DNA from: Muribaculaceae bacterium
GTDB taxonomy: Bacteria; Bacteroidota; Bacteroidia; Bacteroidales; Muribaculaceae
DNA: 64,000 nucleotides
Direction of reading: 5' to 3'
Assembly: GCA_017621225.1 (NCBI GenBank)
Contig: JAGATN010000005.1
Span: 1 to 64,000, forward strand
Below are positions 13,800 to 22,400 of this stretch, piece after piece. Both the position numbers and the translations under genes were made by a program. The notes under the pieces are model-generated. The model saw only the letters and a program-made list of their open reading frames with translations. It did not search any database and was not told where the DNA came from. Position 1 is the stretch's first letter, and every line of letters begins with the position of its first letter.

Positions 13800-15029
13800 A
13801 TGACTTCAAAGCATTATAAATTAGTGACTCGGCAATACCTGTTGCCATTCATACTGATAACTTCGCTATTTTTCGCCTGGGGATTCGCAAGGGCCATTCT
13901 CGACGTGCTCAACAAGCATTTCCAGGAGTCGATGGACATGACCATCGCGCGCTCCACCATGATTCAGGCGACAACCTATCTCGGCTACTTTTTGATGGCG
14001 CTGCCCGCCGGCATCTTCATCACGCGCTACGGCTATCGCAAAGGGGTGGTGATGGGGCTGCTGCTGTTTGGCGCCGGATCGCTCATGTTCATTCCCGGCG
14101 AAAGCATGTGCTCGTTCAACTTCTTTCTGATATCGCTGTTCGTGATAGGATGCGGACTCGCAATACTCGAAACGGCAGCCAATCCGTATGTCACCGAGCT
14201 CGGCGACCGCTCTACGGCAGCCAGCCGCCTCAACCTCGCGCAATCGTTCAACGGCCTGGGATGCATTCTCGCCCCGGTAACCGTCGGAGCATTTCTGTTT
14301 TCGTCGCCCGAAAGCAGCATCTCGGTTCCGTATGCCATAATGGGGTGCGCGGTATTGCTTGCCGCACTCATTTTTTGCAGGGTAAAGCTCCCGGAGATAA
14401 AGACCGACCACTCTATCGGTGGCGGCGACGGCGAGAAAAGCGCCTCGATAGCAAGCACCATACGCTTGCTATGGTCGAGCCGACGGTTCAAAATGGGATT
14501 GCTGGCGCTGTTTTGCTACGAAATAGCCGAAATATCGATCAACAGCCTGTTTATAAACTACGTTACCTCCGACGGATGGATGGATAAGATGACCGCCTCG
14601 GCAGTGCTGTCGTTTGGCGCGCTCGGACTGTTCATGCTTGCGCGCGTGGCCGGAAGTTGGATAATGAGCCGCATACCGGCCGAAAAAGTGCTCCTGACAT
14701 GCGGAATCATGACCGTGGTCGGAACCCTCTTGGTAACGCTCGACTTGGGCTTGCCCTCGAAATGCGGACTATTTGCCTGCTACGCGTTCGAAGCCATCAT
14801 GTTTCCCACCATATTTGCCATGACCATAAGCCACACCGACGGAAACTCGACGAAAATAGCATCGTCGTTCCTGATGATGACTCCGCTCGGCGGCGCGATA
14901 GGCACCATGTTGATGGGATTCGTGGCCGACGCGGCCGGAATGTCGACGGCATTCATAGTTCCGGCAACGGCCTATGCCTTCGTACTGATATACGCCGCTA
15001 TGTTTGCCACAAAACGGCTTAAATCATAA
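13800..15029 (+). CDS. Sugar MFS transporter, FHS (fucose/glucose/galactose) family
   Basis: A 409-residue protein with about 12 membrane helices. Family hallmarks are the N-terminal LLPFILITSLFFAWGFARAILDVLNKHFQ segment and the FVIGCGLAILETAANPYVTELGD motif with N-L-A-Q-S-F-N-G-L-G just after it. These are diagnostic of proton-coupled FucP/GluP-type sugar importers. The neighbouring PfkB kinase, 27 bp downstream, suggests uptake followed by phosphorylation of the same sugar, fructose being one possibility. The sugar itself is inference. Confidence 0.9.
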   Translation: MTSKHYKLVTRQYLLPFILITSLFFAWGFARAILDVLNKHFQESMDMTIARSTMIQATTYLGYFLMALPAGIFITRYGYRKGVVMGLLLFGAGSLMFIPGESMCSFNFFLISLFVIGCGLAILETAANPYVTELGDRSTAASRLNLAQSFNGLGCILAPVTVGAFLFSSPESSISVPYAIMGCAVLLAALIFCRVKLPEIKTDHSIGGGDGEKSASIASTIRLLWSSRRFKMGLLALFCYEIAEISINSLFINYVTSDGWMDKMTASAVLSFGALGLFMLARVAGSWIMSRIPAEKVLLTCGIMTVVGTLLVTLDLGLPSKCGLFACYAFEAIMFPTIFAMTISHTDGNSTKIASSFLMMTPLGGAIGTMLMGFVADAAGMSTAFIVPATAYAFVLIYAAMFATKRLKS

Positions 15030-15056
15030 ATATACTACCACAACCACTTATTGACT

Positions 15057-15959
15057 ATGACTGCTAAAACGACTGACATATGCTGCATCGGACACATAAC
15101 GCTCGACCGAATAGTAACGCCCAATCATAGCGTGAACATGCCCGGAGGCACCGCTTTTTATTTTGCGCACGGCATGAGTTGCCTTCAGCGCCAAGGGGTG
15201 AAGCTGGTGACTTCGCTGGCCGAATCGGAAATGAAAGCCGTCGACGACATTCGGGCAAAAGGGATTGACGTGAAAGTGATACCGAGCCCGCAATCGGTAT
15301 ATTTCGAAAACAAATACGGCGAGAATCAAAACAACCGCACGCAAAGAGTGCTCGCCAAGGCACGACCGTTTACCATCGACGCTCTCGCCGACGTCGAGGC
15401 CAAGACGTTTCATCTCGGCACCCTGCTGGCCGACGACTTCTCGACCGAGGTGCTCCGCTACCTGTCGCAAAAAGGAACGGTGTCGGTCGACGCGCAAGGT
15501 TATCTGCGCGAAGTGCGCGGAGAGAGCGTGCACCCCGTCGACTGGCACGACAAGGAGACGGCGCTGAGACACATCGACATCCTTAAAGCCAACGAGATAG
15601 AGATGCAGACCCTTACGGGCCACGACGATCCGATAACGGCGGCGCGGCAATTGGCCGACTATGGCGTGAAGGAGATATTGCTGACGCTTGGCGACAAGGG
15701 ATCGATAATATACGCCAACGGCCAATTTTACGAAATACCGGCATACGAGCCTGAAAAAGTGGTCGACGCGACCGGATGCGGCGACACATACATGACCGGC
15801 TACCTTTACATGCGCAACAAAGGTGCATCGTACTTCGAGGCAGGGCAATTCGCGGCGGCGATGTGCACCATAAAGCTGGAGCATTCAGGGCCGTTCTCGG
15901 GCACGGAAGCCGACGTAACCAACGTAATGCACCATTGCCGCACCTTTTCAGCGGTATAG
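15057..15959 (+). CDS. PfkB-family carbohydrate kinase
   Basis: A 300-residue cytoplasmic kinase. The C-terminal PfkB signature is VVDATGCGDTYMTGYLYM, containing the D-x-x-G-x-G-D anion hole and catalytic Asp. The N-terminal sugar-binding region has NMPGGTAFYFAHG, and LTLGDKGSIIY is the ATP-site strand. The ATG at 15057 is preferred over an upstream in-frame TTG. It would phosphorylate a sugar with ATP. The partner is probably the FHS transporter encoded just upstream, given the 27-bp gap and shared strand. Substrate unassigned. Confidence 0.87.
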   Translation: MTAKTTDICCIGHITLDRIVTPNHSVNMPGGTAFYFAHGMSCLQRQGVKLVTSLAESEMKAVDDIRAKGIDVKVIPSPQSVYFENKYGENQNNRTQRVLAKARPFTIDALADVEAKTFHLGTLLADDFSTEVLRYLSQKGTVSVDAQGYLREVRGESVHPVDWHDKETALRHIDILKANEIEMQTLTGHDDPITAARQLADYGVKEILLTLGDKGSIIYANGQFYEIPAYEPEKVVDATGCGDTYMTGYLYMRNKGASYFEAGQFAAAMCTIKLEHSGPFSGTEADVTNVMHHCRTFSAV

Positions 15960-16032
15960 CATCGCCTTCTTGCAACGTCTTCTTCAATCTTCCTTTTGCA
16001 ACGCCGAGTATAAAATTATTTTATCGAATTTT

Positions 16033-16060
16033 TTTGCTTTAGTTTTTTTACCTATATTTG
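16033..16060 (+). promoter_or_regulatory. Promoter of the AT-rich two-gene island
   Basis: TTTG (16033-16036) and TATATTTG (16053-16060) are spaced 16 bp, slightly short of the usual 19-20. The predicted transcription start near 16066 lies between the GTG at 16062 and the ATG at 16080, so it favours the ATG as translation start. Confidence 0.6.
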
Positions 16061-16079
16061 TGTGCGTTATTATAACTAC

Positions 16080-16940
16080 ATGGAATTAACGACAGAACAT
16101 AGGACGTATCTTACCAATAAGCATAGAGGTGGATTAAGCAACCAAAAAGGAAATACCTTTGAAGTTATTTACGCCACGAAGGAGATTATACACCTATACT
16201 CTTTGGGCGTTGATTTGGACAACACATATGTTGCAGCTCAATTAGAGGACACGTTTGTTGATGATTTTCAAATCATCTATGATGCCGGATTGAAAGTTTA
16301 TCATCAATGTAAAGATACCAAATCTCTTAGTTGGGAAAAGGATGAGAAAGGAGAACCTTTTTATGATTTTCGTTGGCAAAAAAAGTATTCTTCTGCCAAC
16401 GGAGAATCGTTTAAGCTCAAGATTGTGTACTCAAATACGAGCTGTAAAATTCATACCAGTCCGATTCCGTCAGTCATTGAAGATGTAACCATAAAGGAGC
16501 TATTTCCGGCATATCCCAATTTAAATGCAATATTAGTGGATTCTGAAGACCTCCAAAGTGATATTAAATCCATTTTATTTGCTGATAGAAATGGGCATAC
16601 CTTGGATAAGTTATCTGCATTTGCCGAGGTCATAAGGAGTGAATGGCTTGAATTAGCTGTTCCAAATAGGATTGTCTCATTATCTGAGATTAAAAATCAA
16701 ACTTTATCCAAATATGGCGCCATAATAAACTTTAAAGATTTGCCAAATGTTGAAATATCAGATGAATTAAAGATGATATTTGATAGATTCCCTGAGTTTT
16801 CATACTTAGTAAATGGCAAAAACATATTATGGTCATACAAAAAACTTTCAGGTCAGTTTTGTCTTTCAGACGAATTAAACTCTAATATTATTGAGGCTAA
16901 TCCATCTGAGATATTTCAACTAATAACACTATTTAATTGA
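16080..16940 (+). CDS. Putative PD-(D/E)xK nuclease-like protein of an accessory two-gene module
   Basis: A 286-residue protein that I do not recognise as a named family. The first 80 residues look like the catalytic core of a Cap4/Mrr-like restriction-type nuclease: GNTFE (E28), QLEDTFVDDFQI (E56, D61/D62), then a strand ending YHQCKD (Q76, K78), with the Q-x-K variant of the motif. The remaining 200 residues have no motif I can name. Base composition is clearly more AT-rich than the flanking genes, and there is a dedicated promoter. It is followed after 6 bp by a phosphoribosyltransferase-like gene. Family knowledge: such nuclease domains joined to sensor genes are common in anti-phage systems. 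That this module is one is inference. Confidence 0.6.
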   Translation: MELTTEHRTYLTNKHRGGLSNQKGNTFEVIYATKEIIHLYSLGVDLDNTYVAAQLEDTFVDDFQIIYDAGLKVYHQCKDTKSLSWEKDEKGEPFYDFRWQKKYSSANGESFKLKIVYSNTSCKIHTSPIPSVIEDVTIKELFPAYPNLNAILVDSEDLQSDIKSILFADRNGHTLDKLSAFAEVIRSEWLELAVPNRIVSLSEIKNQTLSKYGAIINFKDLPNVEISDELKMIFDRFPEFSYLVNGKNILWSYKKLSGQFCLSDELNSNIIEANPSEIFQLITLFN

Positions 16941-16946
16941 ACAGTT

Positions 16947-17630
16947 ATGAGGCATCTTCTAAGTAATAACTACGAGCATTCTGAATTGATAAATTCGCTG
17001 CTCAATACAATTGCAGATAAAGATACGTCTGTCGAAGAATACCGATCCTCTTTCTATTCAATTGGAAAAGAGTTAGGGATTATTATTAAGGACCTACTGC
17101 CGAATAAATATAACGAAACGACACTATTGGCATGTGCATCTGAGGATGCCGATTGGCTTGCAGATGGTTTTTTGCATGGCCTTGGCGACACAATGCTTCC
17201 ATTAGCAGTATTCTGGGGAATCAGAGAAAGATTATCAAATGGAATAGATGTCACATCCATAGTACGAACATACAAAGATGATTTAAAATCAGAGTGCAAA
17301 AACCTTATTATCATAAAATCAATAATAAGTTCATCTTGTGTTGTTAAAACACAATTATTGCGTTTAATTTCAGATATTACACCTAAAAACATATACATTA
17401 TTGCACCTGTAATGTATAAGGATGCGGCACATAATTTGAGTATGGATTTTCCGAAGGATATTTCATCTAAGTTTAAGTTTATAACATTTGCCGTAGATGA
17501 TGAAATAAATGAGAATAAAGAAATTATTCCCGGAATTGGTGGAATGGTATATCCTCGCTTAGGACTTGGAACTGAGGTTGAGAAAAATTCATATATACCT
17601 GAAATTGTAAAAAATAGAATGATACAATAG
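16947..17630 (+). CDS. Divergent uracil-phosphoribosyltransferase-like protein (PRPP loop degenerate)
   Basis: A 227-residue protein with no signal peptide. The C-terminal segment at 183-209 (DDEINENKEIIPGIGG.., R204, then LGLGT) matches the uracil phosphoribosyltransferase C-terminus (DE.LNE.GYIVPGLGD..R.FGT). Preceding it, NLIIIKSIISSSCVVKTQLL (119-138) aligns with the PRPP loop, normally (I/V)VVDPMLATGGS; the acidic residue and TGG are replaced by KS and SSS. A conserved IAPVMYKDA strand follows, as in UPRT. Catalysis therefore looks lost or changed; nucleotide or PRPP sensing is possible. It is the second gene of the AT-rich island and shares its promoter. I recall phosphoribosyltransferase-like domains being described in bacterial conflict systems. 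Confidence 0.65.
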   Translation: MRHLLSNNYEHSELINSLLNTIADKDTSVEEYRSSFYSIGKELGIIIKDLLPNKYNETTLLACASEDADWLADGFLHGLGDTMLPLAVFWGIRERLSNGIDVTSIVRTYKDDLKSECKNLIIIKSIISSSCVVKTQLLRLISDITPKNIYIIAPVMYKDAAHNLSMDFPKDISSKFKFITFAVDDEINENKEIIPGIGGMVYPRLGLGTEVEKNSYIPEIVKNRMIQ

Positions 17631-17670
17631 CGGGCGTTGCAGAACTCCCCCCAAAAAATCGAATAAGTGA

Positions 17671-17699
17671 AAAAGCCGTGTTTAATTGGCACGTTTTTT
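17671..17699 (+). terminator. Terminator after the two-gene island
   Basis: A-run and CGTG (17677-17680) pair with CACG (17690-17693) and TTTTTT, with a small GC bulge. Confidence 0.6.
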
Positions 17700-17988: not shown

Positions 17989-19452
17989 TCAGGCGGTGAG
18001 GCCGAGCTCTTTCAGCTTCTTGTATAGCTTGGTTTTGCCAATGCCCAATAGTTTTGCCGCATCTCTTTTCTTGCCGCCGCACTGACTCAACGCTTTAAGT
18101 ATCAGCTCTTTTTCTTCGGCACTCTTTTTCAACGCCGGCCCATCCGACGGTTCATCTGCCTTATTCCGCTTCCACTCTTGCTCCCGCTGCTTGCGGCGCT
18201 CAACCATCTCAGGAAACTGGCGCCTGATAAATTGCCCCAACGAACATTCGTTCAATCCGAGACGGCGACAAATCGACTTCAGCGATTCGAGCGTAGCGTC
18301 ATAGGCGTGTATCGCCTCCCGATACTTCTCCATGCTTTTAGGCGACACCATTTTGCCGCCGTCGGTCTTCGTCATGCCCAGCGCGGCATGCAGCTCCGGC
18401 TCATGCTCCTTCAGGTATTGCCTGAAGCTCTCCGGGTGCAGCCCGAACTCGGCGGCCACCGTCGCCGTTGCAAGTCCGCTCTCCTTCAAGCGCGCTATGG
18501 CAGCGGCATACTTGGCTGCCGTAGCGGGATTATATCGCCGCGCCGTCGACCAGTCAACGGCCTCGTCCTCCTCGTAAGCCACAGCCCGCCGCTTGCAAAC
18601 CAAATCGACGTGCCACGTGTGCAAATACTCGTAAAACCCCTTCACCGATACGCCCGTCTGTTGGGCTATCTTCCTGGCCGACATCGGCGTAGTGCCGTAT
18701 AGATGAAGCGCTTCGGCATACTTCGCCACCGTGGCGGGCATGGGCGCGTGCAGCGTTCCCAGTCCGGTTATCTTGCCCTTGCGTCGCTGCTTCACAGCCT
18801 GCTTGCGTATCTTGATGCGATTTTCAACCAACTCCTTGTGGTAGAATATCAAATGCTGCTCCAATCCGGTGTATGACACATAGCAACGCTCGGCCACATC
18901 CTGCACCGTGACATAACGGTCGGCGCGCAAAATGTCGACGGCCTCGGCATACTGCTCTCCACACCAAGGGCGCATGCCTCTCGGCATGTTGTCGGCCACG
19001 CCCAAACGTTGCCGCGCCTGCTCACGAAACTCCAACACGCCGGGATAATGCCGGCGCAACTGATTGGCGAGATTCGTGCCGTCCAAGCCAAACTCACGGG
19101 CTATCTGCGACACGTTGCACTCGATGTAGTCCATGCTGTCGCACGCCGCGATGGCCTCGCGGTATCGGGCATGTATGTCGGGATGCTGTCCGCGACGCGG
19201 ATCAATCTTTATGCCGTCGGCCTCCTCGCGGCTACACTTTATGCCGTTGCGCTCCAGCATCAGATGCCGATGGTATGTGCTCACATATCGCGAAAAGCCA
19301 TTGAGCGAAACGCCGCACCGCCGGCATATCTCCACGCATGAAAGTCGGGAAGCGGCATACAGCTCCAGCGCCGGGCGATATCTCGCCTCCGTCTCCGGCC
19401 TGCATATTGGCTTGCGTTTTTTCAGGTTACTTTCATTACACGATGTATGCAT
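17989..19452 (-). CDS. Protein with six tandem HTH-like repeats and a C-terminal Fis-type HTH
   Basis: A 487-residue cytoplasmic protein. Six diverged units of about 45-50 residues lie at 21-66, 93-143, 165-212, 241-288, 311-358 and 382-429. Each fits K/R-Y-x-x-A-(I/L/V)-x-x-(Y/L/C).. then a helix-turn-helix core (for example RKIAQQTGVSVKGFYEYLHTWH and ATVAAEFGLHPESFRQYLKEHE). The C-terminus (446-487, LILKALSQCGGKKRDAAKLLGIGKTKLYKKLKELGL) is a Fis-family HTH. It follows the fimbrial tip gene by 12 bp on the same strand, so it is probably the last gene of the fimbrial operon. Inference: a multivalent DNA-binding regulator of the fimbriae or of a related locus. Confidence 0.75.
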   Translation of the reverse strand: MHTSCNESNLKKRKPICRPETEARYRPALELYAASRLSCVEICRRCGVSLNGFSRYVSTYHRHLMLERNGIKCSREEADGIKIDPRRGQHPDIHARYREAIAACDSMDYIECNVSQIAREFGLDGTNLANQLRRHYPGVLEFREQARQRLGVADNMPRGMRPWCGEQYAEAVDILRADRYVTVQDVAERCYVSYTGLEQHLIFYHKELVENRIKIRKQAVKQRRKGKITGLGTLHAPMPATVAKYAEALHLYGTTPMSARKIAQQTGVSVKGFYEYLHTWHVDLVCKRRAVAYEEDEAVDWSTARRYNPATAAKYAAAIARLKESGLATATVAAEFGLHPESFRQYLKEHEPELHAALGMTKTDGGKMVSPKSMEKYREAIHAYDATLESLKSICRRLGLNECSLGQFIRRQFPEMVERRKQREQEWKRNKADEPSDGPALKKSAEEKELILKALSQCGGKKRDAAKLLGIGKTKLYKKLKELGLTA

Positions 19453-19464
19453 CGATTGTCTGGA

Positions 19465-22400
19465 CTATTCTTTTACAGGACGGACTGAGCAGGCATCAGT
19501 GGCATAGAAATATTCCCCCGTATTCACCCCGATATATCCTGTATCTTTCAAATACGCCTTAAAGAAATTGGAGTAATTGTTTTCTTCATAATCTTTTTTA
19601 TCTTGTTCTTCACTGATACTCTGAAAGTTGTGCGCTTGCCATACATACAAGTCTTCTCCTACCCAATAAACCTGACCTGCATCGAAATCACGGTAGCCGG
19701 TCAATGGGAATGTAATTGATATCAATTTTCTTTTACCATTGACATAATATTCCATATTGCCGTTTCTGTATTCAGGCAGCATATTATCCTGAGATACGCT
19801 ATAACCATACTGATTGATACCAGTGGTAGGCCAATAGGTAGTAGTGAATGCCGTGAAAGCCAACACGGGGGCTACCTTGTATCCCGATGGGCAAGGGTCG
19901 TAGATTGTTTTCTTGTCGTCAAGCCAAAGATTCGAATAAATCTTATCGTCAATTTTTCCTCGTTCGTTATTAATCCATATTTCATTTCCATCTTTATCCG
20001 TCGATTTCTCACCAATGACAAAACCAGAGAAACGAGGATTGTTTAATTTTTGAGGATTCCTAATCATACGGCCTATGGCATCAATAGAGGTATCTCTTTT
20101 GTTAGGATTAATACCATCCGGATTGTCACTGATAACTTTCTTGCCATTTGCGTCATAGGAAGTTATAAATAGCGACGGGTTCAGAAAATCAGGATCATCA
20201 TTTCTTTCAACCAATGCTGTGCCGTCAATACACCACCAAGTTTTGTTGGTCCAACTTGCATCAGTACCTACCAACGGATCTTTCCTTCCCCATTGGAAAT
20301 ATGTGTTATTACCTCGGGGCAAAGATATATGTGGTTCCTGAATGATATCCACTATCTGCTCAGATCCGTAATTTGAAGTGCCGTCATCATTTCTCGACAA
20401 TATCTGTCGGAACCGTACTTGACACTTATGACGGTCATAATATCGAATATCATCATCAGGACGGGAACACCATCCTAAATTGACAGGCATAACTCCATAA
20501 TCTCCATATAAATAGTTTTTGACAGTCCATATCCTGTCGGTCAGTTCTTTGCTTTGCACCCATACGTGCCAACTCCATACAATAACGTTATCCTTCTTGA
20601 GGGCAATGACGGCGTTGCCTTGAGCTATATTGTCGCCGATAGTGAACGAAAGTCCACCTTTTCCCCCATAAGCGCCTGCTTCATAAGAGACATTGCTGAT
20701 GAGGTTCTCCGAATCCTGCCAGACAATACAAGCATCTATTGTCCCGGTCCTACCAATATCGTCTAAAATGTAGGCACTCGTTATGTCCTCATTATTGTAA
20801 TTTTTAAAGGTCTTCAACACCCTGTCGTCGCCTGTAAATCCTGAATAGGTTGTTGCGTCGATATTTCCACCTTTGCCGATAGCATTGCCGTATACAAGGG
20901 GTAAAGTGTAGGTTCCTTTAGCATCGACAATGTAGCAATTGGCCGTGCCGTTTGAGGCTAAATCAGTAACTTTGTCGTTTACCCTGGATTTTAGAAGTTT
21001 ATTGATATTTACCGGCTTAAACTCGTTTTTATAATTGATTTTATATACTTTCAGTCCCTGATTCTTGTGCGTAGGGAACTGATCGGTAACATCCTGTATC
21101 GCTCCGTTAAGCCATCCCGGAACCGTTCCGGAAAAATCCGATTTACGAAAATTTTGGTCAACAGAATCCCTGTATTCGATTGAAAAGTCAAGCAAATCTC
21201 GTTTGCCCCAGACTTCTTCTGTGTTGTAACGATAGCTGGAAACTGTAATCGTGTTTACGTCATAAAAATTATTACCCTGATTGTCAGTCAGATTATCAGG
21301 CAAAAAATATTTACCCTGGTAGTTGACATCATAGGGTTGCGAGACTCCAAACTTCGTAACGTAGTCGATACGCCAGTCAGGTTCGTCGGCAAATCCTCTG
21401 AAATGTAGTGTCAGTTTATAATGGCAGTTGCGCTTCGCGTTATAGTCAGTCGTGATATTCTGACCCAACATGAACCGATAGGTTATATTGCTGATACCCG
21501 GACGTTGGGGATTTTTCGATACATAATAGGCATCCACCTCAATGTAAGTGCCAAATTCCTTCCCTTTGGTATAGGGTGAGTCCTGAAGACCGTCCTTGTT
21601 TTCATCGGATATGACCGATTTATCAGGACCATCTCCCTGCATGTTCTCGTAAAAGAATAGCGAGTTCGGGTTATACTCGGAATGAGCGGATTCAGACATC
21701 TCCCATGTCACAGTCTTACCATCGTCACTCGTTATTTTTTTCCCTTCCGGATATAAGGGATTGTCATGTGCAATCTGCACCGGATAGTTCTCGTCGAAGT
21801 TTGTAGATTCGCTATAAGTCACCACTTCTCCTGTTTCAATAATATCACCGGCACTACCGGCTTTACTATCCGTGCCGAGCAGGCATGTTTTGGGTATCTG
21901 CTTTATTCGCAGCTCCTTGAAATAAATGGTAATGCCTTCGGCCAAACCTGTTCCGTCAAATGCCACGGTTACTTTTGAAGCGGCACGACGCAGCCATGCG
22001 TGGAGTCGCACGGTGTTTTCGTTCACTGCAAGAAGTTCTTCCTGAACCGGCATATTTACTACTCCCGACATCAAACAGCCTATCATCTGGCCATTGGCTG
22101 ACACATTTTGGGAATTCCATGCAAGGGGGATATTCCGCAGCCCCTCGACAGTTTTTATCGCATCAGAGTGCGTTGTCAGCAAATCGGGGATATTAGCCAC
22201 CGCATACATATAGTATCTGCCAAACTCTATTCTTTCCGGCAGGTCGAAAGTTGCCTGTTTAGTGCTTGATTCCGCACTGGCTCCATTTTCTGCATTATTA
22301 TCATTACGTTCCTCGTCAGACGTAGCATAATTATCTATTTTATAACTTTTTATTAAATTCTTTTCCTGGTCATATATCAGCACATAAAGGCTGTTGATTT

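Follow-up and report, generated by a model that had tools for sequence, protein, structure and literature searches.

Nucleases of the Cap4 type are a weapon common to several bacterial immune systems, each of which has its own lock. In Lamassu and ABC-3C the nuclease LmuA (DdmA) stands with the SMC-like LmuB and with LmuC, in the cyclic oligonucleotide-based antiphage signalling systems (CBASS) Cap4 carries a larger receptor half, and further nucleases of this kind occur in HerA-DUF4297 and, as HamA, in Hachiman. PMC12409362 describes LmuA as being liberated on activation and assembling into a homotetramer, by which its Cap4 nuclease domain is switched on. Proteins of the phosphoribosyltransferase (PRTase) fold are found in retron type III, and in the two-gene, toxin-antitoxin-like defence systems DprA-PRTase and ShosTA. 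In ShosTA the PRTase is the toxin. According to the relevant excerpts, retron type III combines a PRTase with a winged-helix protein and a reverse transcriptase (PMC12548924), the PRTase of DprA-PRTase is the presumed effector (PMC9122126), and a figure legend of the DefensePredictor report lists a PRTase among validated E. coli systems (PMC13092281). Here we analyse two adjacent genes in a 64,000-nucleotide stretch of Muribaculaceae bacterium DNA (assembly GCA_017621225.1, contig JAGATN010000005.1, positions 1 to 64,000; the window), and tentatively propose, with a probability of about 0.45, that they form a two-gene, horizontally moving, toxin-antitoxin-like defence module, in which a Cap4/LmuA-type nuclease is restrained by a pseudoenzyme of the uracil phosphoribosyltransferase (UPRT) fold.

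The nuclease gene lies at 16080-16940 (286 aa from its ATG; an alternative GTG start at 16062 would add six residues) and the UPRT-fold partner gene at 16947-17630 (227 aa), both on the forward strand with 6 bp between the open reading frames. This close linkage had been claimed in a first-pass annotation made from the letters alone, and so had the A+T richness of the pair relative to both flanks, which is evident from 1-kb windows: GC content is 0.33 over 16001-17500, the lowest in the 64 kb, and 0.54-0.56 for 14001-16000 and 0.57-0.58 for 18001-19500.

The predicted fold of the first gene product is close to the Cap4/LmuA nucleases over approximately residues 17-222, beyond which a C-terminal tail of about 65 residues follows, and the folds closest to it belong to nucleases of CBASS, Lamassu, HerA-DUF4297 and Hachiman; the prediction thus contains the nuclease fold that a Cap4-like nuclease should have. 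The PD-(D/E)xK-like pattern noted in the first-pass annotation is present with all six residues, five of which are conserved among 32 full-length relatives: E28, D61, D62 and K78 in 32/32 and Q76 in 31/32, whereas E56 varies and is Lys in the Muribaculaceae relative L005. Of the copies on viral contigs, the alignment (A5) includes only the nuclease of L049; it also leaves out L003 and L004, which are on plasmids, and the nucleases of L017, L025, L028, L030, L040, L044 and L045, which are broken or cut. The residues are of the PD-(D/E)xK type found in the Cap4 family, as judged among relatives and not by residue mapping onto Cap4. The window nuclease matches no PADLOC 2.0, NCBIfam or Pfam family; PF14130 (Cap4/DUF4297) matches three of the 32 relatives (best 7.3e-5) and not the window protein itself, and none of the viral protein structures searched gave a match to it with an E value of 0.001 or lower. 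From the predicted fold, gene 1 probably encodes a Cap4/LmuA-type PD-(D/E)xK nuclease, which would cut DNA.

The partner matches PF14681 at 27.5 bits (cut-off 27), which bears out the UPRT-like C-terminus assigned to it. Its predicted fold is that of a UPRT, but its active site is rewritten when compared with Upp. Residues E66, K124, S125, C131 and G199 are invariant among the partners. All 37 aligned partners have Glu66 and Lys124-Ser125, where all 30 UPRTs have Arg (RAG motif) and Asp-Pro (loop DPMLATG, which contacts phosphoribosyl pyrophosphate, PRPP), and the Asp of the uracil loop is also replaced in 37/37. The partner alignment (A6) leaves out L003, L004, L032 and L041, the cut copies L042, L044 and L045, and the copies on viral contigs; the partners of L003, L004, L032 and L041 have the invariant residues too (41-row alignment A4). 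The UPRTs come from 30 of 34 matching genomes and were chosen without a filter on the residue in question. Since the patterns used to recruit partners included E66-D67 and K124-S125, the residues were rechecked in a set of 19 partners that had been reached by way of the nuclease and of which 11 are outside A6, and Glu66 and Lys124-Ser125 were present in 19/19. Judged from these alignments, the partner is a pseudoenzyme, in which the positions for PRPP and uracil contact are replaced by new invariant residues. The partner is unlikely to bind PRPP in the manner of a UPRT, since neither the Asp of the PRPP loop nor the RAG Arg is retained by any member of the two sets; this weakens the PRPP-related signal once suggested for the partner, which may still sense a nucleotide. 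A UPRT with canonical motifs is encoded elsewhere in the same genome (L114, G000:C35:120967-121587). It scores 167 bits against a TIGR01091 cut-off of 208, and the UPRTs of all but two of the 34 matching genomes also fall below this cut-off, forming a divergent Bacteroidales UPRT branch.

These features set the pair apart from the systems described above. The partner is a UPRT-fold protein, where Lamassu has LmuB and LmuC, the nuclease has only its short tail in place of the receptor half of Cap4, and, unlike in HerA-DUF4297 and Hachiman, no ATPase or helicase serves as the partner. DprA-PRTase and ShosTA presumably use their PRTase as effector or toxin, whereas here it is the presumed antitoxin. 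The likeness to retron type III, a PRTase-fold protein in a presumed defence operon, was followed up from a weak match of the PADLOC model PRTase_III-A to 25 of the 37 partners (best E 2e-4); membership was rejected, as the retron-type PRTases encoded beside reverse transcriptases (L118-L121) keep an acidic DDxxxxG PRPP loop from which the partner loop differs. The five window neighbours scanned (a multi-helix-turn-helix (HTH) protein, a PfkB kinase, a major facilitator superfamily transporter, a DUF4906 protein and one without a match) include no SMC-like LmuB or LmuC, no CBASS nucleotidyltransferase (CD-NTase; genes further away were outside the search), no reverse transcriptase, and no methylase, so that restriction-modification was rejected as well. 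We rate the pair as a Cap4-type nuclease with an unusual regulator. It is not described in the family libraries or the open-licence PMC papers searched (subscription papers and preprints were outside the search), in agreement with its having been called undescribed.

A scan of genome contigs gave 41 partner loci. They belong to Bacteroidota, Cyanobacteria and Beta- and Gammaproteobacteria, with one doubtful case each in a metagenome-assembled genome (MAG) of Alphaproteobacteria and in a Paceibacterota MAG. A full-length nuclease lies directly upstream of the partner in 30/41, and in 16 of these 30 intact pairs the two genes overlap by 4 nt. The co-occurrence is thus conserved across several phyla, and the neighbours of the relatives vary, as for a pair that moves as a unit and is not confined to housekeeping contexts. 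Two copies are on plasmids, a 10-kb Geminocystis plasmid and a conjugative Chroococcidiopsis plasmid. A survey starting from the nuclease, whose genome sets overlap and whose counts include fragments, found matches in 2/148 relatives (the window's own genome and one of another genus), 2/393 Bacteroidales, 8/386 cyanobacteria, 21/378 genomes in the order of a Dolichospermum and 2/274 in the class of a Marinobacter, one of the latter a chance match. The pair is therefore rare, patchy and mobile. A prophage gene was considered and rejected, since P0002 had no match at E 0.1 among 50,697 phage records. Five IMG/VR contigs carry the partner; a search of IMG/VR for the nuclease found none, and was not exhaustive, since L049 holds one. 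The partner genes of L030 (a Beijerinckiaceae MAG contig) and of L046-L050 (IMG/VR) are near-identical, with and without a nuclease, and these contigs are perhaps one plasmid family labelled viral by mistake. L028 (Paceibacterota MAG) and L033 (Paraburkholderia) also hold near-identical pairs (synonymous divergence of the partner, dS, 0.06), reflecting either recent transfer or MAG contamination.

The limits of the mobile unit are seen by comparison with L005, a 20.7-kb MAG locus whose nuclease and partner are 86% and 83% identical to those of the window. Only 16005-17621 (forward strand, 85% nucleotide identity) is common to the two (blastn 1e-5, tblastx 1e-8), so the unit is a mobile cassette that brings along its own -7 promoter element. 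This element, TATATTTG at 16053-16060 on the forward strand, is of the Bacteroidota type and is kept in the alignment with L005. Of the promoter and terminator attributed to the pair in the first-pass annotation, it is the part that holds: TTTG at 16033-16036 is a weak -33 candidate, 16 nt from the -7 element and not kept in L005, and a promoter pattern search with 18-22 nt spacing did not match the 16033-16060 site. The terminator-like stem-loop with T-run at 17677-17693 (forward strand) is outside the common stretch and not above chance, one being found against a mean of 1.2 in shuffled sequences. A clean empty site was sought in congeners and none was found; in G014 other genes lie downstream of the PfkB orthologue, and in G032 the PfkB-transporter order is reversed.

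The evidence on how the two proteins are related comes from the way in which they are lost. In the 18 genomes in which the nuclease-first survey found a full-length nuclease, the partner is directly downstream in 18/18. In five more genomes (G390, G207, G1342, G1213 and G150, with G1342 and G150 already counted among the partner-first loci) a broken nuclease stands next to a partner frame of full length. Conversely, 9 of the 41 partner loci are without a full-length nuclease, and the partner is complete in six of them (L012, L017, L018, L024, L025 and L028); L030 and L040 are cut by contig ends. No nuclease is present at L012, L018, L024 and L042, nor was one found when the rest of these genomes was searched, and the incomplete nucleases have an internal deletion (L017), lack the C-terminal end (L025), are split into two overlapping frames (L028) or miss one part (L044 and L045). 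The ratio of nonsynonymous to synonymous divergence (dN/dS) of the partner at such loci is 0.18 (L017/L018) and 0.14 (L024/L042), close to the 0.12-0.19 of four intact pairs, and this divergence may in part be older than the nuclease loss. In IMG/VR, L047 and L049 share 3,475 bases, the partner gene among them, at 100% identity, and only L049 has a nuclease in front. Nuclease and partner distance matrices are correlated (Mantel r 0.92, 29 loci, 0/2000 permutations as high, host phylogeny uncorrected). A full-length nuclease never found without its partner, and an antitoxin-like partner found alone, is the pattern of type II toxin-antitoxin systems, and suggests a toxin-antitoxin-like module. 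A toxic gene 1 held by gene 2 is the best explanation of this one-sided loss, which lends indirect support to the earlier idea that the partner controls the nuclease. We also observed, naming the genes by eye, that the orphan partners L018:1609-2345, L024:9287-9887 and L042:6757-7342 are directly downstream of VapBC-like or PIN-domain toxin-antitoxin genes.

Some copies have a suggestive neighbourhood. In the cyanobacterial loci L004 and L035, genes for a DpdE/DrmD-like helicase and a DrmMI/type IIG-like methylase lie upstream of the pair and one for a DruE-like helicase comes immediately after it, and a DruE-like helicase is also beside the pair in L020 (only the downstream helicase was scanned there); these names are PADLOC best matches to large helicases and methylases, and not proof of systems. 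The clusters (L004:1-14766, L035:2214-16215 and L020:1858-7179) are possibly a larger composite defence system. PADLOC was run on 139 of 150 near genes (without four each from the near-duplicate loci L015 and L032, and without L029:2296-5136, L035:2214-5066 and L035:10852-16215) and on 85 of 93 far control genes (without four from L015, two from L032 and two from L030). Its output counts families and not proteins (193 near, 43 far, the first 25 listed), so that the comparison is not a formal test of enrichment in defence islands. In the window the pair is flanked by the PfkB kinase gene (15051-15959) and, on the other side, by the 487-aa multi-HTH protein gene (17989-19452, reverse strand). 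The latter protein has homeodomain-like HTH matches throughout and a Fis-type HTH at its end; it has long homologues (43-45% identity) in only 2/33 congeners, others matching by the tail only, and a frame-interrupted paralogue in the same genome.

Several observations weigh against a nuclease-antitoxin defence module. By sequence, the best match of the nuclease profile among solved structures is unrelated (E 0.86), and the single nuclease relative that matches LmuA in PADLOC does so at E 0.022, a value surpassed by chance-like hits that individual members have to other PADLOC models. Of the 18 genomes with a full-length nuclease, four (G000, G159, G1168 and G1166) were chosen as pair-bearing centres and six have a partner identical to a known row and so repeat partner-first loci, leaving eight new ones; because nucleases linked to a partner were used to build the survey profile, unpaired ones that are more distant would escape it, and at L065, L066 and L158 a short remnant of the nuclease is present and no partner lies within 1.5 kb. 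Among the one-sided loci, the contigs of L044 and L045 end inside the partner, the partner of L042 is also truncated, near its end, and the state of the L025 and L028 nucleases could be due to single frameshifts or assembly errors. As for context, no defence genes are among the five window neighbours scanned, no neighbour Pfam family recurs in more than 4 of the 139 neighbour genes, and defence families, DrmB and DrmC for example, turn up in the far control set as well. The presumed effector role of the PRTase in other systems belongs here too, and carriage on plasmids leaves room for plain addiction.

The constant pairing (18/18), the tight spacing and the frequent 4-nt overlap would also fit a two-subunit nuclease, in which the UPRT-fold protein is indispensable for activation or targeting and DNA is cut by the complex alone. 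We find this unlikely: after loss of the nuclease a pure subunit would be expected to decay, yet the partner is complete at six of nine such loci and its dN/dS is low in the two partner pairs tested there, so that an activating subunit accounts for the pairing but not for the orphans. Orphan antitoxin-like copies are also expected of a plain addiction cassette that stabilises plasmids and islands and has no anti-phage role, for which the Geminocystis and Chroococcidiopsis plasmids and the rare, patchy occurrence in cyanobacteria and Bacteroidales also speak. This too is improbable in our view, and defence is favoured over it because of the family of the nuclease fold, whose nearest members all serve defence systems, and the cyanobacterial copies, two inside helicase-methylase clusters and a third beside a DruE-like helicase.

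The weak PRTase_III-A matches, and the presumed effector role of PRTases in the excerpts on retron type III and DprA-PRTase, could mean that the roles are reversed, with a toxic PRTase-like protein regulated by the nuclease-like one; since partners persist without the nuclease, their PRPP loop is unlike that of L118-L121 and the nuclease retains all its catalytic residues, we hold this to be very unlikely. Least likely of all is a metabolic or DNA-repair pair with no link to conflict, to which the UPRT fold of the partner and the lack of defence genes among the scanned neighbours might point: the pair is mobile and patchy (two matches among 148 relatives), many nuclease copies are broken, and the genome already has its canonical-motif UPRT.

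In the defence module that we propose, gene 2 would bind the nuclease and keep it inactive, until infection alters the partner, either through a ligand in the rewritten pocket or because a shorter-lived partner is lost as host expression stops. By analogy with LmuA, the nearest precedent, the freed nuclease may then assemble and destroy DNA, halting the spread of the phage and sacrificing the cell, while orphan copies of gene 2 may give immunity against incoming copies of the pair. The inhibition, the infection trigger and the anti-phage function are inferred. In a more specific and rather doubtful version, the charge-swapped pocket (Arg to Glu, Asp to Lys, with an invariant Cys) would be a new sensor of a nucleotide or metabolite, which holds the Cap4-type nuclease and releases it when infection changes the nucleotide pool. 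To our knowledge, such a class of UPRT-pseudoenzyme sensors is not known from CBASS, Thoeris or retrons. If the proposal is correct, this family of nucleases would have a new and very small lock, a UPRT-fold protein whose active site has been rebuilt, and the pair would be a minimal two-gene immune system, of 1.6 kb and two proteins, compact enough for direct testing. Stray UPRT-like genes, which annotation readily takes for salvage enzymes, would then also be explained as antitoxins or immunity genes.
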